From positions 1-40,174 of IMG/VR virus record IMGVR_UViG_3300025896_000008: a stretch of DNA of 40,174 nt; one strand, 5' to 3'. The number at the start of each line of letters is the position of its first letter. Positions within the stretch are counted from its first letter, which is position 1. A program made the position numbers and the translations under genes. Positions 3,662 through 40,174 of this stretch are shown one piece after another. The DNA comes from a virus. The notes below the pieces were generated by a model. It was not told the DNA's origin. It saw nothing but the letters and a program-made list of their open reading frames with translations, and searched no databases.

Positions 3662-6600
3662 ATGCCAGCACTAACGATCACACAGATTCGGTTCGCCAAG
3701 ATACCGACCCCGTTAGGGGCTTTACTGGTACGCATCAACCGCAACCATCCCTTCTGGGACCTATCTACCTACTCAAGCAGCGGGTACTTGGAGATACGAG
3801 ATCGCAGAGGTGTGGTGAGTGTCGGGGACTGGAAGCGTAGGCTCCAAGATGAAGAGGGGGCCTTAGTGATTGATAGCCTTGACGTAGTGGTGCAGGATCG
3901 GCTAAAGGTGCTGGGCGTTATCACCTCAAACCCTACCGAAACGGTCTATGACTACGGGGCAAACGGGACGACGCTGCTCCAGCACTTTTTTAGTGATGAG
4001 AGTGCGTCCTACACAGCATGGGTCGGGCTTGAGAGGGGTGGGGCCACGGAGATATTTTTTTCTGGCCACATTGACCCAACGTCTATCCCAAAAGAGTGGT
4101 CGCAGATACGTGTCCCCAGCTCGAGTGATGAGCAGCAGCTTGGCCGCTACACCCTAAAGATCAACCCCGCGCAAGCACTGCGAGAGAAGACAGTGCAAGA
4201 CTTCATCGGTAGCAACCTGAACGCTGACGGTGAGACTGCCGAGGCCGCTCGGTACTACAACGGGTTGGTCACAAACTGGGGCGGCCCTGTACTGTTTGTA
4301 TCGCCAGCACTCACTACTTCGGCAGATATTAAAAAAACTCTTGTCGAGATTGGACACGACACGTCGCTTGCTGGAACAGGCATCTATGATGCCGTCCCCT
4401 ACACGATTGACGGGAGTGGCGATCACTATGGCCTTCAACGCATCACTCTCGCGAACGTCTGCAAGCGTGTTGCTGCGGTGTGCGACATGCAGTGGTCAGC
4501 ATCGGACTTTGTGCCTGCGTTCGACTTTACAGAGCAGACCTACAACAACACGACTGATTCGTACGAAGAAGCTGTTCTCACGCCTACCGACATCACCATC
4601 AACTACAACGTCGCGTTCGGCGTAACGCCGCTGGATGGTCGCGATTCGGATGAGTGGGACAACCCGATACGCTGGCAACGGGACGCAGGGCTTGGTGAAG
4701 TGCTGCGAGATATAGCGTGGCAGATCGGCGCATACGTGCAGTTCGACTACCACCAGACAACGGGGCAGATGATCCTGAAGGTTCGGAGCCGTCGCGAATC
4801 CTCCGGGACGTTCCCCGCATGGCCAGTCATAGGCGGGAGTAGTCAAGAGTCGGCGAAGCGTATCGGTAAGCAGTACGTGGAGGTGAGCAACCGCGCTCTC
4901 AAGGGGTCAATCAAGTGTCCCGGTTTCCGTAAGGGTGATGGCGTTAAGATCGAGCTTCCGTTCCGAACACGACCACATGGACCGAGGGCGGGCAACCCTT
5001 GGTTCGTGAACTTTTTCGTGGTGAACGGGGAGTGGGGGAATACGAACGTCCTCAACCAAAAGAAGCTCGAAGATGGCGGAGCGGATAACGGACTGAACCC
5101 CGATGTGTGGGTGTACGGTGCGTATCTCTATCGCTATCGGTCGGGGACTACAAACCTCGGCTACGCTGACGACTGGAACGCTCGGTTGCCTGGCGGTGGT
5201 TCGTGGGCGGGGTGCTACGCCTTGCGGTCGTGCCGCGATGGCGGTGCGTCGTCAACCAACATCACCCGAGAGAACACGTTGGTGGGGCCTGCAGAGTTCT
5301 ATGCGCGTGAGCTTCTTGGGGATCGAGTGGTCTTTGAGCGCGAGTTCAAGATCGACCTCTTAACGGGAGTCACTGCCCTTCGTGACCTGCGCCCCAACCT
5401 CGAGTATGCTACGAGAATCAACGGCAACACGGTCACGTTCCGAGCGGAAGAGCTTGTTATCAACTTTGCTCGTGGCACGGTCAAAGCGACGTTTGTCGAG
5501 AAGCCCGACTACTCATCCCTGCAAGACCTACCGATTGAGGTAACGGGGGTCGAGGAGAGTAGCGGTGGTACGGGGTCGGCCAGTGAGTCGGGGAGCGGCG
5601 GGAGCTATAGCGGTTCGTCAGCGATTGCTGATGAAGTGCTTGTGGTCAAGGCCGTTGCTACATCCAACGTTGTACTGAACACTGCCACCAGTGCGATAGA
5701 TGGCCAATCGCTTGTAGCAGGGGATATAGTGCTGGTTGTGGGGCAATCCGATGCAAAGGAGAACGTGCCGTATCTCATCCCCTCATCAGGTGCATGGTCG
5801 CGTCTCAACAGCGATCCGCAGACGTGGCGCGTCGTGAAGGTGGACAAGGGTACGACGTATGGTGGGAGTATCTGGACGTTCACCAACGCGGCGGGCGTGG
5901 TCGGTACAGATACGTTTACATGGAAGCGGCTTCTCCTCGAGGGTGAAGGGCTGAACGGGTCTGGCACAGCAAGCTATCTATCCAAGTGGTCGGACACCGA
6001 TACGCTCACCGTCTCGGGGGTGTACGAATCCGGCGGGGATGTTGGTATCGGTGTGACGACGATGAGCGGGAAGCTGCACGTCAAGAGTACGACAGGCTCC
6101 CCCGCCGTCACCGTAGAGAACACGTGGACGGGGAACGGGGTTGACATCTCAATGAGCGGCGGCGGTCATAGTGTAGCGGTATCTCACACAGGCGGTGGCT
6201 ATGGTGTGCAGGTCACGAAGAGCGGTAGTGGCCGCGCCATCAACGTCACGCATAGTGGCACGGGAGAAGGTGTGCGTATCGCAGTGACTGGTAGCGGCAT
6301 TGCTTTGTACGCAAGCGCAACCGACCAAGTGGTGGCCGATCTCTATCGCAACTACCAAGCAAGCGCACCGCTGCTACGGGTCATCGAAGACAACGCGTTC
6401 TGCTCGCAAGACGCAGTGTCTATCCGTGTGGACGGCAAGGGTAGCGGGATCAACCTATCGCGGGACAACAGCAGCCCAGATTCCCCACTGGTCAACATCC
6501 TTGAAGACAACTCTTCGAGCAACAAGGACGTGATAAGCGTCAAGGGCGATGGAACGGGCGTGGTCATCCTTGCGAACGCCGCTGGCACTGGTTCAGCGTT

Positions 6601-10516: not shown

Positions 10517-10636
10517 GTGGGGTGAGCCTGCTATATCGGCGGCAATAGCATCCCCAAGCGATGAGTGTTTTTGAATTGTGAATCGTTGTAAAATCTTCGG
10601 AAAATCTTCAGAAACCTTCATTTTGAGGGGTGTTTC

Positions 10637-10702
10637 GTTTGGAATAGCAAACAAAAACAGTTATCTTTGTACTCCCTGAAGCGGGGAAATAACCAACACT
10701 CA
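10637..10702 (+). promoter_or_regulatory. Promoter with palindrome, TATCTTTGT box and leader motif
   Basis: GTTTG-gaatag-CAAAC (10637-10652), then TATCTTTGT (10662-10670), a perfect TAnnTTTG -7 box, then the leader 12-mer AACCAACACTCA (10691-10702) followed by CTTAGT. The start codon is at 10722. The arrangement and spacing are nearly identical to the promoter at 11661-11727, as if one was copied from the other. Confidence 0.75.
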
Positions 10703-10721
10703 CTTAGTCCTAACAAACCAC

Positions 10722-11045
10722 ATGACAGTAACCGAGATTACCGCCGACCTACGCAGCACAACGGGTGTAGAACCGACCGAGTTCGTCGCCTATTTTGATG
10801 ACGCAGACCTAAAGACCTTGCGCAAGGTCATTCGCGAAGAGATGGACGTTGTCGCAGTGATCGCGGAAGAGGTCGAAGGCCGCTACGATGAATGTGTGAG
10901 CCGCTACAACGAGTTGGATGACTACCTCGGAGCAACCATCACAGCGATTGATCGGATGGAAGAGCGGGTAGCGGAAGAGGGAGCAGATAAAGAGCGGTGG
11001 GGTGTCTATGGCTACCCATGGGGGAGCCGCCCAAGATGGGCCTAA
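10722..11045 (+). CDS. Small acidic protein of unknown function
   Basis: A 107-residue acidic, largely helical protein (for example DADLKTLRKVIREEMDVVA and IDRMEERVAEEGADKE). No known domain is recognised. It is the first gene after a palindrome-type promoter and a leader motif, and its stop is followed within 26 nt by a GNRA-loop hairpin. Its place in a unit leading to a Rad52-like protein suggests an early function, but this is only context. Confidence 0.6.
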   Translation: MTVTEITADLRSTTGVEPTEFVAYFDDADLKTLRKVIREEMDVVAVIAEEVEGRYDECVSRYNELDDYLGATITAIDRMEERVAEEGADKERWGVYGYPWGSRPRWA

Positions 11046-11617: not shown

Positions 11618-11660
11618 CAAATGTAGCAGGATGTACAAACTCCATTTTGGTGGCTGTTTC

Positions 11661-11727
11661 GTTTGGAGTTGCAAACAAAAAGAGCTATCTTTGTACGTCC
11701 TTAAAACGGGACACTAACCAACACTCA
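11661..11727 (+). promoter_or_regulatory. Promoter with palindrome, TATCTTTGT box and leader motif
   Basis: GTTTG-gagttg-CAAAC (11661-11676), TATCTTTGT (11686-11694) and leader AACCAACACTCA (11716-11727) followed by CTTAGT, 17 nt before the ATG at 11744. Spacing between palindrome and -7 box (9 bp) equals that of the promoter at 10637, and the similarity extends over about 75 bp. Confidence 0.75.
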
Positions 11728-11743
11728 CTTAGTAAGGATCACG

Positions 11744-12032: not shown

Positions 12033-12575
12033 ATGGAAGAGACTAAGATATTGGAGCTTGAAGCCAAGCTCGAGCAGTTCCGCCAGCCGTTGCTACCGAA
12101 CGAGATTGACTGGAAGATCGCGGCTAACGGCAAGCCCGACCGTAACGGCGTGACAAAGACGACGATTGTGCCGTACATAGATAACCGGGCCGTGCTGAAT
12201 CGGCTGGATGCGATATTTGGTGGCGGCGGGTGGCGGAACGAGCTGACACAGATCAACGGCGGGTTCCTCTGCCGTATCCTGATCCGTGGGGATGACGGGG
12301 AGTGGATCGGCAAGATCGACGGTGCAAGCAGTACCGACATCGAGCCAATCAAGGGGGGGATCAGTGATGCCATGAAGCGCGCGGCTCACCAGTGGGGGCT
12401 TGGGCGTGAGCTATACAGCTACCCCACCGTCCAGATCGCTTGGCAGGGCGAGGCCAAGCGGTGGATACCGCGCCCCGTGCTGGACAGGCTGGAGAAGATG
12501 ACGTTGGCCATTATCGAGGGGCGATACTCGGAGCAGTACGTGGCGTTTGAAGAGAACGGCGGGAACTACCGATAA
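12033..12575 (+). CDS. Rad52-like single-strand annealing protein
   Basis: A 180-residue protein that most likely anneals complementary single strands during phage recombination. It carries Rad52/Rad22-type signatures: LLPNEIDWKI near the N-terminus (residues 20-29), PYIDNRAVLNRLDAIFG (47-63) and WR near 67. A GIDGAS-like acidic-glycine region follows, then GGISDAMKRAAHQWGLGREL (residues 108-127), the hallmark helix of the family. The length fits the stand-alone phage and prokaryotic forms, shorter than eukaryotic Rad52. Partner genes would be a nuclease or SSB, but none is recognised beside it; a RuvC-like resolvase lies at 22.9 kb. It is preceded by a leader 12-mer and followed by a strong hairpin. 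Confidence 0.85.
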   Translation: MEETKILELEAKLEQFRQPLLPNEIDWKIAANGKPDRNGVTKTTIVPYIDNRAVLNRLDAIFGGGGWRNELTQINGGFLCRILIRGDDGEWIGKIDGASSTDIEPIKGGISDAMKRAAHQWGLGRELYSYPTVQIAWQGEAKRWIPRPVLDRLEKMTLAIIEGRYSEQYVAFEENGGNYR

Positions 12576-21930: not shown

Positions 21931-22869
21931 ATGACCAAACGACGCAGAGCCCAGATGATGGCTATTGCCAAAGCGTTGCAGGAAGCGGCAGACGGCAGGG
22001 GGCTTCGTCTGAGTGACGTTTGGAGCGATTGGCTCTTCATTACGGAAGCATCGCTACGGATGATGCCAGTCCACGCTCAATCGCTCCATGACACAGGGGA
22101 GATCGCGCAAGACCCGCCAGAGATCGCTGAAGATTGGCAGTGGATACAGGGCAAGTACGCAGATGATTTCCAGCACCTTTGCGATGCCTACTCCCTACTA
22201 CTTGAGACTGCGGCCCCGATTGGGAGTGAGCCGCCCGAAATCTACGATCTACTTGGCCCGCTCTACATGGAGGTAGGCAACCCAAGTATCAGTGCTGGCC
22301 AGTTTTTTACCCCGTGGGAGATGTGCGTGACGATCGCAAAGACGATAATGGCGGATGCCCCTGCGTTGGTATATCAACGGATGGAGCGAGCGTTGCAGCA
22401 CGATCCGATGCACGCGATGATGATGGGAGAGCGGACGGGCTGGATCACACCGGAGATCGGTGAGTATGTGGCAAAGCATATGCTACCGAAGGTGATGGAT
22501 CACTACGATCCTGTGTGCGTCCATGACCCTTGTGTCGGTAGTGGTGGGATGCTACTGGCCGCAGCATCAGAGTTCCCGACATGGATGGTGGCAATGGGGC
22601 TTGTGCTTTTTTACGGCCAAGACATCTCGCTGGATTGCACACGGATGGCACAGATCAACATGATGCTGTTCGGCCTGAACGGCTGGGGCTTGCGGTTTAC
22701 CACGGCGATGGCTCATCTACGGGAAAGCCCGTTGGCCAAGCGATTCCGAGAAGAGGTTCCGCCGACAGCACCAGAGCCAATGATTGCGAGCGTATCGGCA
22801 TGCCCTACCGATACGATGTATCCAGATATTGAGATCGGCGCACAAGGTGCGCTTTTTAACCTACACTAA
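21931..22869 (+). CDS. HsdM-like N6-methylase-fold protein lacking the catalytic NPPY motif
   Basis: A 312-residue protein with the SAM-binding half of an HsdM-type (type I, gamma-class) adenine methylase: QFFTP (residues 124-128, motif X), HDPCVGSGGMLLAA (198-211, motif I) and YGQDI...NMMLFGLNG (228-251, motifs II-III). After motif III the chain should show the catalytic (N/D)PP(Y/F), but none is found; instead it ends with a polar, Pro-rich tail (EEVPPTAPEPMIAS). It may bind SAM without methylating DNA, act with a partner, or be a reduced form of the family. It lies next to the resolvase gene and 3 kb from a complete methyltransferase. Upstream GGGAGGG is the ribosome site. Confidence 0.75.
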   Translation: MTKRRRAQMMAIAKALQEAADGRGLRLSDVWSDWLFITEASLRMMPVHAQSLHDTGEIAQDPPEIAEDWQWIQGKYADDFQHLCDAYSLLLETAAPIGSEPPEIYDLLGPLYMEVGNPSISAGQFFTPWEMCVTIAKTIMADAPALVYQRMERALQHDPMHAMMMGERTGWITPEIGEYVAKHMLPKVMDHYDPVCVHDPCVGSGGMLLAAASEFPTWMVAMGLVLFYGQDISLDCTRMAQINMMLFGLNGWGLRFTTAMAHLRESPLAKRFREEVPPTAPEPMIASVSACPTDTMYPDIEIGAQGALFNLH

Positions 22870-22909
22870 CACACAACCATTAAGGATTACTTAACAGTTC
22901 AAAAAGTAG

Positions 22910-23428
22910 ATGAAGAACCCAAATATGCTTATAGCACTTGAACCACTGCGAGATAGAAGAGAACGGAACGGGAAGAAGGGCGACCGCCCCGAACCGGAGC
23001 GCGTACTGATAGGGATAGACCCCGGGACGAGATGCGGGATAGCATGGAAGGTGGGGCGCAGCGCGATGCAAGTAGCGACAAAGGGCTTGCTGGATACGAT
23101 GGCGTTACTCACCAAGATCGTACAAGGACATGGGGCGGCACGGGTCAAGATATGGGTTGAGGATGCACGGATGAATCGCCCCGTTTTTGATCGGGGTGTA
23201 TCACGTCAAGCGATGCAGCGAATCGCCCAGAACGTTGGGAGTGTCAAGCGCGACACCGACCTACTGGAGCAGCACTGCAAGACGCTGGGGATCAGCCCCA
23301 TGATGGTGCGCCCGACAACGGCCAAGTGGACACCCGCTATGATGCGAGCCGCCACAGGTATCACCAAGCCGTGCAGCCAACACGCACGCGACGCCGCCAA
23401 GCTCATCGCAGGGAGGGGTGGGAGATGA
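22910..23428 (+). CDS. RuvC-like Holliday junction resolvase
   Basis: A 172-residue nuclease of the RNase H/RuvC fold, acting on branched DNA in recombination and packaging. Catalytic residues are visible: Asp37 in LIGIDPGTRCGIAW, Glu84 in IWVEDAR, and the C-terminal pair His158/Asp161 in SQHARDAAKLI. QNVGSVKRD (residues 108-116) is also a RuvC-like segment. It is preceded by a small inverted repeat (TTAAG-N5-CTTAA at 22880). Its last 25 codons are duplicated at 24637, and its own end (after IAG) differs from that copy, as if the gene end was re-formed at a recombination join. It overlaps the next start (ATGA). Confidence 0.85.
   Translation: MKNPNMLIALEPLRDRRERNGKKGDRPEPERVLIGIDPGTRCGIAWKVGRSAMQVATKGLLDTMALLTKIVQGHGAARVKIWVEDARMNRPVFDRGVSRQAMQRIAQNVGSVKRDTDLLEQHCKTLGISPMMVRPTTAKWTPAMMRAATGITKPCSQHARDAAKLIAGRGGR
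23339..23414 (+). repeat. Resolvase 3' end, first copy of a direct repeat
   Basis: Bases 23339-23413 (25 codons, Met144 to Gly168 of the resolvase) recur at 24637-24711. The first 50 bases are identical; the remaining five differences are all third-base, synonymous changes. Confidence 0.95.
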
Positions 23429-23467
23429 ACGCTTTTAACTGGACGATAGACGCACTCTTGCAGGGAG

Positions 23468-23875
23468 TTGATCCCCGCCGAAGAGGTTCGGGGATATTGG
23501 GAGAGATACATCACAAACAAGCCAGAGATGAACGAGAAGCAGGCCGTATCCGATGCCACCGATTGCGTGGCTTTTCTCAAGGTGGCGATGCAGGAGATAT
23601 TCCACGGCGACAACACCGACGATGACCTTGTGGTCACCATCATCGCCGATAAAAACGAATCCTCCATCAGGGTCGAGTTAGGAGGGAAGCGCACGTATGC
23701 AAAGGATAGCAAGTGCGTGGAGTTTGAGCGAGGTTCACGCGTCGGGAAGATCGCGATAGATGGGATTGAGTTCGCCCTCGATGGCTACCTAAGCGATGAG
23801 GGCGTGTGGAGCAAGGAGATAGATCGAGCAGTTGCTGAGAGGAAGAAGCAACGGGACAAAAGAAGGGGTGGGTAA
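23468..23875 (+). CDS. Accessory protein, apparently frameshifted near its start
   Basis: The main frame (135 residues from TTG at 23468, or 115 from the ATG at 23528) gives a plausible protein: ELIPAEEVRGYWERYITNKP, SDATDCVAFLKVAMQEIFHG, then beta-rich and basic parts (EFERGSRVGKIAIDGIEFAL, AERKKQRDKRR). There is no good start in this frame, whereas an ATG at 23425, in an ATGA overlap with the resolvase, opens another frame reading MNAFNWTIDALLQ. Removing one G from GGG at 23464 would join them into NWTIDALLQELIPAEEVRGY. So the gene is probably broken by a single-base insertion or an assembly error, or uses a +1 shift. Function unknown. Confidence 0.6.
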   Translation: MIPAEEVRGYWERYITNKPEMNEKQAVSDATDCVAFLKVAMQEIFHGDNTDDDLVVTIIADKNESSIRVELGGKRTYAKDSKCVEFERGSRVGKIAIDGIEFALDGYLSDEGVWSKEIDRAVAERKKQRDKRRGG

Positions 23876-23883
23876 CGAGAGTC

Positions 23884-23902
23884 GTTAACCTTTGGGGTTA
23901 AC
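23884..23902. promoter_or_regulatory. Inverted repeat GTTAACC-TTTGG-GGTTAAC
   Basis: Perfect 7-bp arms around 5 bases, 9 bp after the preceding stop. A second pairing, CCCCCT with AGGGG, follows just before the start at 23946. It may be an operator or a leader hairpin controlling the Ala/Trp-repeat gene. Confidence 0.45.
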
Positions 23903-23945
23903 GCCAACCCCCTCGAAATCAGGGGAACTAACAACAGGATCAATC

Positions 23946-24617
23946 ATGAGCAAGAGCATGACACACTGGAGTGACAAGTTTACAGGGACAGCTTGCGACG
24001 CAGGTATCAAAGAAGCACGTCAGTACGAGACGTTCGCCGATTGGTGGGCGGGGGGAGAGAACGGGGAGTATATGATACGCGCACTATATGAGATAGGATA
24101 TGACGACCAACGCGCGCTACGCCTATTAGCGGTTCGATTTGTACGCGAGACTACACTCAGTGATGGTCGGACAGTGTGGGACTTGCTGGAGGATGAGCGT
24201 AGCAGGGAAGCGGTGATAGTAGCAGAGCGGTACGTCAACGGGGAGGCATCGGGGGATAGACTGACGGAGGTATGGACAGCAGCACGAGAAGTGGCAGCGA
24301 AAGCGGGGCGGACAGTGGGAGAGGGAGCGGAAGCGATAGCGTGGGCGGCACAGGCAGCGAAAGCGGCAACGGGGGCGGTATGGACAGAGGTATGGACAGC
24401 GCCATGGGCAGCGGCGTTGGGAGCGGCATGGGCATCGGCATCGGCAGCGGCATGGACAGCGGCAGGGACACGGGCATGGACAGCGGCATGGACAGCGGCA
24501 TGGGCATCGGCATGGACAGCGACAGCGGCTCAACACGCCGCTATAATCCGGGAGATGATCCCTGCATCAGAGATCGAGCCATTGGTCAATCAGTACATAG
24601 AGCCAGCCCTATTATGA
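23946..24617 (+). CDS. Accessory protein with Ala/Trp-rich repeat region
   Basis: About 223 residues from the ATG at 23946 (the longer frame from 23892 has no ribosome site). The N-terminal part (CDAGIKEARQYETFADWWAG, EYMIRALYEIGYDDQRALRL) and the segment VWDLLEDERSREAVIVAERY...NGEASGD match a common phage/immunity-type family recalled as having a short helical domain followed by Ala-rich repeats. Residues about 110-205 are a low-complexity helix of A-A-W-T-A type blocks, encoded by short DNA repeats. The tail (AAIIREMIPASEIEPLVNQY) is normal sequence. Role unknown; the cassette position between the duplicated resolvase ends marks it as acquired. Confidence 0.65.
   Translation: MSKSMTHWSDKFTGTACDAGIKEARQYETFADWWAGGENGEYMIRALYEIGYDDQRALRLLAVRFVRETTLSDGRTVWDLLEDERSREAVIVAERYVNGEASGDRLTEVWTAAREVAAKAGRTVGEGAEAIAWAAQAAKAATGAVWTEVWTAPWAAALGAAWASASAAAWTAAGTRAWTAAWTAAWASAWTATAAQHAAIIREMIPASEIEPLVNQYIEPALL
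24272..24535 (+). repeat. Low-complexity repeat within the Ala/Trp gene
   Basis: Short, imperfect units of the type GGCATGGACAGC and GGCATGGGCATC recur through this stretch, so all three forward frames stay open over much of it. Such arrays can expand or contract by slippage, so length variation between isolates is expected. Confidence 0.7.
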
Positions 24618-24636
24618 CCAAACAGGGGATCGCAGC

Positions 24637-24712
24637 ATGATGCGAGCCGCCACAGGTATCACCAAGCCGTGCAGCCAACACGCACGGGATGCCGCAAAAC
24701 TAATCGCAGGGA
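24637..24712 (+). repeat. Resolvase 3' end, second copy of the direct repeat
   Basis: Partner of 23339-23414; the two copies flank a 1.2 kb accessory cassette holding the frameshifted gene and the Ala/Trp-repeat gene. Confidence 0.95.
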
Positions 24713-24717
24713 AATAG
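24637..24717 (+). pseudogene. Remnant: 3' end of a second resolvase gene
   Basis: A 26-codon frame (MMRAATGITKPCSQHARDAA then KLIAGK) repeats the last 25 residues of the RuvC-like resolvase exactly, ending in Lys and stop. Differences from the resident copy are five synonymous third-base changes, so it descended from a working resolvase gene rather than from a recent local copy. It lacks the catalytic Asp and Glu and cannot act alone. Confidence 0.8.
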
Positions 24718-24719
24718 TT

Positions 24720-25289
24720 ATGAGTGCTTTTTTTCAGAAACCTAACGTTCGGTTTATCGAGATACCAGCGACCGGCCCGCCGTACAAGCTGCGTGTCCTC
24801 GTTGGTGAGAGGATCGTGGGCCACGCGGAGATGGAGATGTGTGAGGGCGGCAACTGGAGCGCGTTGGTTCGGTATTACGACCACGCTGACCAGTACGACG
24901 ACGAGGAAGCGGAGTTTGACGGCTACGATGAGGCACGAGAGTGGGTTGAGGGCTGGTTCCGCGAGCGATGGGATGTAACGTGGTTGGCGTTGTGCGGGGA
25001 GCCTATGGAGCAAGCCACTGTATCCCTCACTCTCAACCCGCTGCTCATCATGCAGACGGATGACAGCAGCGTTAGCTGCGGCTCACCGGATAACGTCATC
25101 GGCTCGGTCGTCCGTGCGAAAGGGCGTTATCTATGCCTCTACGAGTATGCGGGTGAGGAAATCTTCGCGACCAAAAAAACAGCGATAGAGGTGCCAGTCT
25201 GGTTTGAAGAGGTTCATAGCGAGATGCTGGTGAAACTGATGACCAAAAACGTAATCGCCTTCGACATGACCACAGGAGAAACGCCATGA
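24720..25289 (+). CDS. Protein of unknown function
   Basis: About 189 residues from the ATG at 24720; the open frame upstream runs through the resolvase remnant and is not a likely start. It is beta-rich with an acidic middle: NVRFIEIPATGPPYKLRVLV, NWSALVRYYDHADQYDDEEA, then RAKGRYLCLYEYAGEEIF and a final AIEVPVWFEEV. No family recognised. Its stop overlaps the next start (ATGA). It begins 3 nt after the remnant stop, so it was probably the original gene downstream of the second resolvase. Confidence 0.6.
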   Translation: MSAFFQKPNVRFIEIPATGPPYKLRVLVGERIVGHAEMEMCEGGNWSALVRYYDHADQYDDEEAEFDGYDEAREWVEGWFRERWDVTWLALCGEPMEQATVSLTLNPLLIMQTDDSSVSCGSPDNVIGSVVRAKGRYLCLYEYAGEEIFATKKTAIEVPVWFEEVHSEMLVKLMTKNVIAFDMTTGETP

Positions 25290-25516
25290 CACCAGAGCCA
25301 AGGATTGAAGACTATCTGCCGTATATGCTGGACGCGGACGACCGGATGCTGATAGACGAGATGGAAGCTGTTGGCTGCCTATCTCGCCAAGATGTGGCGG
25401 ACTGGCCGCCCTTCTCCGCTCCTTTGAGTGGGAGCATCGGTACTGTCCAAAGACATGGATACGCCCAACACCGCAACCGAGTATGTCACTGGATCAGAAG
25501 ATCGAGATATGGTTAG
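25286..25516 (+). CDS. N-terminal part of an apparently frameshifted gene
   Basis: The start is coupled by ATGA to the preceding gene, giving a natural-looking N-terminus (TPEPRIEDYLPYMLDADDRM, then AVGCLSRQDVADW). After about residue 39 the frame continues as a Ser/Arg-rich tail unlike a domain, whereas the -1 frame from about 25402 reads LAALLRSFEWEHRYCPKTWI and continues into the 25483 frame. A single missing base near 25402 would restore one protein of about 180 residues. See the next entry. Confidence 0.5.
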   Translation: MTPEPRIEDYLPYMLDADDRMLIDEMEAVGCLSRQDVADWPPFSAPLSGSIGTVQRHGYAQHRNRVCHWIRRSRYG

Positions 25517-25827
25517 AATGGGGCTATACAGGGGTAAGCTCAAAGACGATGCTGTCAGTGCTAACGGGGAAGAATATCCTCCCTGAATCAGAGTATTCGC
25601 ACCCGTTAGACTGGGCCGATTTCCGCCGTTGCTATTTGCTGGTAGAAGCGATTCCCGAGCTACGCGCCAGCATAGACAAGATGGCCGAGGTGTCCAGCGA
25701 ATGGGCGATAATCGTTGGTGATTGGGACAAGCTAACCGAGACGCTACTTAGGGGGATAGAGAGCGGTGAGGTTTCTGAGCCTTTCCCTATCGCACAAGGT
25801 GGGGAATGGGATACGCCTTTAACATAA
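25483..25827 (+). CDS. C-terminal part of an apparently frameshifted gene
   Basis: The open frame from the ATG at 25483 gives 114 residues with a recognisable pattern: MSLDQKIEIWLEWGYTGVSS, HPLDWADFRRCYLLVEAIPE, and WAIIVGDWDKLTETLLRGIE. This matches a helical phage protein family recalled as having the phrase H-P-x-D-x-x-D-F-x-R-C-x-x-L-(L/V)-E-(A/x)-(I/V)-P-E. The same frame is open upstream and reads sensibly back to about 25402, which is why the true gene probably starts at 25286. If 25483 is used, there is no Shine-Dalgarno site before it. Function unknown. Confidence 0.55.
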   Translation: MSLDQKIEIWLEWGYTGVSSKTMLSVLTGKNILPESEYSHPLDWADFRRCYLLVEAIPELRASIDKMAEVSSEWAIIVGDWDKLTETLLRGIESGEVSEPFPIAQGGEWDTPLT

Positions 25828-39870: not shown

Positions 39871-40174
39871 ATGGCATCAAACGTTCGTGTCGGGATTCAG
39901 TTCGCCGTCAACCAAGCAGCGTTCCGAGCGCAACTTGACCAAGTCAAGCGTGCGATGGGGACGCTGTTTTCGGATATATCAGTCAACGACAAGGGCGTAC
40001 TACAGGGGTTCCAGCGTATCCGTGAGGCTGCGCAGCAGACAGGGCAAGCGGTAAGCAGATCGGCCCGTCAGTCGTCACAGGAGAGCCAGAAGAGCTATAA
40101 AGATACAGCGAGGGTAGCACAGCTTGCCGCTGAAGCAATCGCAGCACAAGAGAAGCGGCTTGCAGACGTTAAGG
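39871..40174 (+). CDS. Tape measure protein (5' part; continues at window start)
   Basis: The true start of the tape measure gene, ATG at 39871. The window ends inside it; the last 126 bases repeat the first 126, so the protein continues in frame at position 3 of the window. Starts with SNVRVGIQFAVNQAAFRA, a usual opening of tape measure proteins, followed by a charged, Gln/Ser/Lys-rich coiled coil. About 41 nt separate it from the T chaperone stop. Confidence 0.95.
   Translation, partial: MASNVRVGIQFAVNQAAFRAQLDQVKRAMGTLFSDISVNDKGVLQGFQRIREAAQQTGQAVSRSARQSSQESQKSYKDTARVAQLAAEAIAAQEKRLADVK
40049..40174. repeat. Terminal direct repeat, right copy
   Basis: Identical to 1-126; together they show that the sequence is one turn of a circle plus a 126-bp overlap. 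Confidence 0.95.

Follow-up and report, generated by a model that had tools for sequence, protein, structure and literature searches.

The 40,174-nucleotide (nt) viral sequence IMGVR_UViG_3300025896_000008 from IMG/VR, analyzed over its whole length and referred to here as the window, carries a predicted resolvase gene whose 3′ end is partly repeated 1.3 kb downstream. The gene (positions 22910–23428, on the plus strand, as are the repeat copies, the stub, the cassette genes, the gene behind the stub and the Rad52-like gene discussed below) encodes a protein of 172 amino acids (aa). This protein matched the PHROGs profile phrog_1770 (Holliday junction resolvase) with an expectation (E) value of 7.8e-14 over residues 30–168, which is most of its length. 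No resolvase family was matched in Pfam or NCBIfam, the only Pfam hit being DUF460 below the cut-off, and no relative with a solved structure was found by sequence at E values up to 0.01. Three acidic residues of the RNase H fold, D37, E84 and D161, are invariant in all six phage resolvases of our alignment (A1), and we take them to be catalytic. Based on these features, the gene product is a predicted phage RuvC-like Holliday junction resolvase; D161 is located in the motif HARDAAKL, within the duplicated end.

A repeat search of the record identified a two-copy family of 76 nt, at 23339–23414 and 24637–24712, with 93% identity and a spacing of 1298 nt. When the whole resolvase gene was used as the query against the record, two matches were obtained at E ≤ 0.001, corresponding to the gene itself and the second copy only. 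Alignment of the two copies reproduced exactly the pattern described in an earlier note on this DNA: the first 50 nt (23339–23388 and 24637–24686) are identical, and the five mismatches (23389, 23392, 23398, 23401 and 23404) all fall within the last 26 nt, in codons 160, 161, 163, 164 and 165, and are all synonymous. The chance that five randomly placed mismatches in 76 nt would all land in the last 26 is 0.0036, and the chance that they would leave a clean run of at least 49 anywhere is 0.027. The two tails also differ past the repeat. Read from the sequence, the second copy opens a resolvase stub of 26 codons (24637–24717; ATG ATG ... GGG AAA TAG).

Two genes lie between the joints. The stop codon of the resolvase tail fused to this cassette overlaps the next start codon in ATGA at 23425–23428 (ATG at 23425), as in an undisturbed operon. 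In the open reading frame (ORF) list, cassette gene 1 (23425–23875) is interrupted by a frameshift near 23466–23474, with MNAFNWTIDALLQG... in one frame and IPAEEVRGYWERY... in another. Its second part matched no family in Pfam, PHROGs, PADLOC or NCBIfam. Cassette gene 2 (23946–24617) encodes an Ala/Trp-repeat protein with a conserved N-terminal part, which matched phrog_18326 (E = 7e-5) and phrog_8332 (E = 0.0015), both families of unknown function; a 12-nt tandem repeat is present at 24375–24521 inside this gene. The stop of gene 2 overlaps, in ATGA at 24614, the possible start of a third gene (24614–24636; MTKQGIA...), which would be truncated within its first few codons, at the right joint of the cassette. 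The guanine-cytosine content of the cassette (0.569) gave no sign of foreign origin when set against that of the window (0.568). Neither cassette protein matched a recombinase in Pfam, PHROGs, PADLOC or NCBIfam. Three candidate identities for the cassette were rejected: defense cargo, with no PADLOC match for either protein; a transposable element or miniature inverted-repeat transposable element, with no inverted repeat of at least 18 nt at the cassette ends and a direct repeat of 50–76 nt; and a known RNA or intron, with no Rfam match at E values up to 1 within 22800–25400.

The same repeat and cassette were found in another IMG/VR record, 3300006805_000422 (L003), which aligns with the window along all of its 12,814 nt at 99.91% identity, with 11 mismatches and without gaps. 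The frameshift in cassette gene 1 is present there in the same state. It is a separate record, and its sample is possibly not independent of that of the window. An assembly slip is unlikely because this sister record, which differs at 11 positions in 12,814 nt, carries the same arrangement. At 24643, the C of the window is a T in the sister record, which changes the start of the stub to ATG ATG TGA. Because of this early stop, the stub is not a peptide kept by both phages and seems to be a remnant.

A relative without the cassette, L094, was the best of the 52 loci recovered from a scan of genome contigs (genome_contigs) with a six-row resolvase alignment. L094 is a 5,358-nt contig of a Chlorobiota metagenome-assembled genome (MAG), G001, and its complete resolvase, with another gene directly behind it, shares 58% aa identity with the window resolvase over residues 1–169. 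Upstream lie homologues of the window genes at 20021 and 21931, with identities of 37% and 50%, respectively, at the aa level, and the three longest nucleotide matches between L094 and the window are 69–72% identical. Neither cassette gene is present on the contig. The last codons of the L094 resolvase are CGG GAT GCC GCA AAA CTA ATC GTG GGG AAA TAG. We compared codons at positions where the amino acid is equal, leaving out Met and Trp, and defined the tail as residues 160–168. The stub shares all eight comparable tail codons with L094, and the fused tail shares three of the eight. L094 carries the stub's codon at all five mismatch positions, and past the repeat the stub and L094 remain identical as far as the stop (GGG AAA TAG).

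Since the codons and stop of the stub are those of the cassette-free relative, the original 3′ end is most likely preserved in the stub, where it would now lie displaced at 24687 and beyond, and the fused tail (23389–23428, stop at 23426–23428) most likely came with the cassette, whose left joint is at the start of this tail. The earlier note had proposed that the two tails diverged under selection in different resolvases and that the second copy was the foreign one. The tails do look like alleles that diverged under protein-level selection, but a foreign origin of the second copy is not supported, since its codons and stop are those of L094, where they end a complete resolvase without the cassette genes. 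In codons 144–159, where the two copies of the window are identical, nine substitutions and one missing codon set L094 apart from the window (alignment A2). Because L094 differs in this stretch, the 50-nt identity looks like one recent duplication; at the divergence of the tails (5 in 26), the chance of 50 clean positions is ~2e-5. The 50-nt block is best read as the same DNA present twice. Its first copy, which differs from L094 in several codons, would be native resolvase DNA, and the position at which the copies part, 23388/23389, is best read as the point where the recombinant left the native gene.

These data confirm that the phage resolvase locus carries a well-resolved recombination scar, and the suggestion of the earlier note that recombination around the cassette left the stub behind agrees with the appearance of the stub as a recombination leftover. 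We consider it probable that two phages recombined by a homeologous exchange in the conserved resolvase end and by an illegitimate re-entry 50 nt upstream. The recipient would have carried an ordinary resolvase with the 3′ end now seen in the stub, and the donor would have been another phage, with a synonymous but different resolvase 3′ end followed by other genes. The exchange would have fallen in the stretch coding for the last motif with the invariant Asp (HARDAAKL), so that the resolvase would run into the last 13 codons of the donor and stay open; the gene at 22910–23428 would then be a chimera of a native body and a foreign end. The donor DNA behind the tail would have brought in the now-frameshifted gene, the Ala/Trp gene and the first codons of the third gene. 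The return to the recipient would have been an illegitimate joint at or near ATGATG, placing the right joint of the cassette at or beside the first letters of the second 50-nt block, 50 nt upstream of the exit point. In this way 50 nt of recipient DNA would have been duplicated exactly, and the original tail would have remained as the stub.

The two joints differ in kind. The copies part inside the HARDA motif, a conserved stretch of two diverged alleles, and a left joint in such a stretch points to homeologous recombination; because the exchange fell in the conserved end, the resolvase stays open. At the right joint, a donor gene appears to be cut close to its beginning, and the sequence continues in the native gene from ATGATG. 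Such a joint suggests illegitimate joining, in which a start codon may have provided microhomology. Blocks gained by one homeologous and one illegitimate junction are described in the available part of Martinsohn et al. (2008; PMC2327257), and the available part of De Paepe et al. (2014; PMC3945230) describes Rad52-like phage recombinases acting on short, diverged stretches. The window encodes a Rad52/Rad22-family single-strand annealing protein (12033–12575; PF04098, E = 3.7e-15), which is a candidate agent and which we infer may have carried out the exchange.

Several observations weigh against this scheme. The microhomology at the right joint amounts to at most a start codon, and a point in the available text of De Paepe et al. 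(PMC3945230) counts against an illegitimate second joint. The putative donor was absent from the results of the viral_contigs and genome_contigs scans, one of which consisted of the best 80 of 307 matches. L094 is the only cassette-free relative, at 58% aa identity, and no second copy of the resolvase end was found in the 851 nt behind its resolvase, where the contig ends, so that a stub as distant as that of the window would be invisible. Of the 10 comparable codons in the 50-nt block, 7 are the same in L094, and the block is therefore not unusually diverged at silent sites. The stub tail, in turn, is closer to L094 (8/8) than is the gene at large (33 of 72 comparable codons in residues 1–143), with (33/72)^8 at ~0.002; possible reasons for this closeness are a further recent transfer of the tail between phages, constraint at the nucleotide level and chance.

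The gene directly behind the L094 resolvase is also not the gene behind the window stub, and L094 therefore falls short of a strict empty site. In L094, the resolvase is followed by a gene starting MTPEP and then by one starting MSNLFQKP, which is the homologue of the gene behind the stub (24720–25289; MSAFFQKP...; 40% over 40 aa to the L094 gene starting at 5141, two genes behind its resolvase). In the window, the stub is followed by the MSAFFQKP gene and then by an ORF that matches the MTPEP gene over its first dozen or so codons only. An uninterrupted resolvase directly before a homologue of the 24720 gene, which the earlier note had anticipated, was not found in any relative, and in L094 the MTPEP gene lies between the two. 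Positions 25275–25320 of the window are 81% identical to L094 4524–4570 over 47 nt, covering the leader and the first dozen or so MTPEP codons, after which the sequences diverge; this match may mark a second recombination joint at a gene start.

Other explanations of the locus were weighed against the same evidence. The layout is that of prophage e14 in icd of Escherichia coli K-12, where, in the available part of the source (PMC6379469), a 163-bp icd end is displaced and a replacement end is provided by the prophage. A small site-specific element of this kind could have entered the resolvase 3′ end with a synonymous replacement end, displacing the original, and could have been moved by a recombinase acting in trans, such as the phage integrase. 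The L094-type end on the far side and the replacement end fused to the gene (8/8 versus 3/8, from one relative) are consistent with this, and the window does encode a phage integrase (14778–15971; PF00589, E = 1.2e-6). However, the cassette proteins matched no recombinase, the ends lack inverted repeats of at least 18 nt, and a third copy of the core is absent from the record. In addition, a gene appears to be truncated at the right end, one of the cargo genes is frameshifted, and in scans of the viral contigs with the resolvase end and with genes 1 and 2 the unit turned up only in the sister record. Because no recombinase was recognized and the right end looks ragged, we did not class the unit with e14, and we regard such an origin as unlikely.

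An exchange in the opposite direction is, in our estimate, just as improbable as the e14-like element. Here, the original operon would have consisted of the resolvase in its present form, with the fused tail, and of both cassette genes, and an L094-like phage would have contributed the stub and the DNA beyond it. The fused tail overlaps the gene 1 start codon in the manner of a native operon, which suits this direction, and the stub fits an L094-like donor equally well. Such a transfer needs a donor whose 50 nt equaled those of the recipient, yet L094 differs there by nine substitutions and one codon.

A broader idea, that the resolvase 3′ end is an attachment-like site for recombinase-less cassettes that carry a synonymously recoded end and are moved by the phage integrase or the annealing protein, appears to us doubtful and less probable than either of these. 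If it were true, the recoded end would both keep the gene whole and remove the target sequence, and the unusually close synonymous match between the stub tail and L094 would reflect a target at the nucleotide level. That the resolvase end was duplicated in tandem and then drifted is very improbable: the 50-nt block alone resembles a fresh duplication, but L094 contradicts this origin, in that all five changes are synonymous, lie in the last 26 nt and show the L094 codon in the stub, a pattern that drift in a stub would not produce. The tails differ beyond the repeat as well, with the stub equal to L094 up to the stop.

To assess recurrence, 136 other resolvase loci were tested, comprising five records of annotated phages, 79 viral contigs (drawn from the best 80 of 307, with the sister record excluded) and 52 genome contigs; two further loci (L149 and L150, of 138) were left out because their resolvase was not placed by tblastn. 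Downstream sequence of at least 1,500 nt was available for 125 of the 136 (851 nt for L094), and many of the loci, including many from Acinetobacter, are near-duplicates and not independent. Each locus was searched for a second copy of its own resolvase end, and a pooled search with 91 distinct ends followed. A clear stub was found in one locus, L113, from an uncultured Acinetobacter MAG (NZ_CANQTS010000004.1). The L113 resolvase has its stop at 6453, and its closest match is the L109 resolvase (86% up to its stop). The stub starts at about 6485, ~30 nt past the stop (region 6453–6530), matches the L096 resolvase end at 90% over 42 nt, and from there on L113 and L096 are colinear over 1.5 kb (78%). 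L071 (80%), L109, L076 (76%) and L124 (71%) likewise have the genes behind the stub; no stub was found in these four loci, and L096 aligns with the stub best.

Other small matches (15–26 nt or 17–24 aa, at E values of 0.01 or better) were present in 12 of the 136 loci. Ten were upstream or on the opposite strand, and those in L024 (26 nt) and L079 (18 nt) were downstream but matched an earlier part of the last 150 nt rather than the gene end. In the pooled search, L113 alone was recovered at the DNA level (E ≤ 1e-3), and the protein hits in L081 and L101 (E = 0.02–0.04) were upstream. Judged by these alignments, L113 carries an allele joint like that of the window, without cargo, and it lends support to recurrent recombination at resolvase ends. 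With one case in 136 loci, many of them near-duplicates, the general landing site for cargo that the earlier note had drawn from the window is not supported.

Further searches for the donor and for empty sites returned few relatives. Scans of viral_contigs, whose results may omit records very near the window, recovered the sister record only when the queries were a two-row resolvase alignment, the methylase-like gene, the 24720 gene or cassette gene 1, and the sister record plus the viral contig L153 when the query was the Ala/Trp alignment. Among phage records, tblastn with the resolvase returned 21 records, all below 60% identity, and no record was returned for the 24720 gene or for cassette gene 1. 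Within the phylum of G001, 3 of 395 genomes had the resolvase (E ≤ 1e-10), of which only G001 was close, and within its class 1 of 391 had it (E ≤ 1e-8), G001 itself; cassette gene 1 was found in 0 of 391 genomes, in a search without a positive control. Relatives of the Ala/Trp protein were found in phage vir526 of Methanomicrobiales (47% over 102 aa), at two places in G001 and in L153. In the four stretches around Ala/Trp homologues there was no convincing resolvase, the best match having an E value of 0.78 (L153). Near an Ala/Trp-family gene of G001, at 2703–3544 of L146, there is an array resembling clustered regularly interspaced short palindromic repeats (CRISPR), with a 61-nt period and the repeat GGATCATCCCCGCACATGCGGGGAACAG. 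The 13 spacers of this array, compared with the window as a lead to the host, matched it over 15 nt or less only.

Other features of the record were also noted. Identical 126-nt direct repeats are present at 1–126 and 40049–40174, which makes a circular or complete genome of about 40,048 nt probable. Four perfect copies of the motif AACCAACACTCA are present (10042, 10691, 11716 and 12011), a count reached in none of 100 shuffles. Three of the four copies lie 10–20 nt before the start codons at 10722, 11744 and 12033, the last being that of the Rad52-like gene, and two copies are located behind a duplicated stretch with TATCTTTG (10613–10708 and 11637–11733). This arrangement presumably resembles Bacteroidota promoters; the full Bacteroidota-type promoter pattern was not above chance in the window. 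An array of GCGGACACTTG-type repeats is present at 19468–19701, inside the gene at 19192–20169. The protein of the ORF at 25483–25827 gave a weak PADLOC match to JetA3 (E = 0.0067), which may be due to chance.

Known systems resemble the resolvase locus in part. As in the helper-embedded satellites (HE-PICIs) described in the available part of PMC10111431, DNA has been inserted in a phage gene; those elements carry an integrase and interrupt late genes of prophages, whereas the resolvase gene of the window stays whole and no integrase was recognized in the unit. The likeness to e14 in icd is closer, because in both a gene end is replaced with the protein nearly unchanged and the original end lies on the far side. 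As far as the available source on e14 goes, however, that element is a prophage that integrates site-specifically, whereas the window has a 1.3-kb unit without a recognized recombinase and with a right end that looks ragged. In L113, as in the window, a resolvase of one allele stands before the 3′ stub of a second allele; L113 differs in having ~30 nt rather than 1.3 kb between them, no cargo and a resolvase of another clade; the parallel suggests that resolvase ends have been crossover points more than once, and the cases are too few for a rule. Mosaicism attributed to Rad52-like recombinases, as presented in the available parts of PMC2327257 and PMC3945230, likewise involves exchange in short conserved stretches and a Rad52-family protein, and the window differs in that its homologous joint is at a gene end and is accompanied by a duplicated 50-nt block and a stub. 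A scar of this ordinary kind is expected in phages. Its value is that of a readable fossil of gene gain by a tailed phage, in which the exit point can be located almost to a single base and the direction of exchange can be argued from a relative without the cassette.

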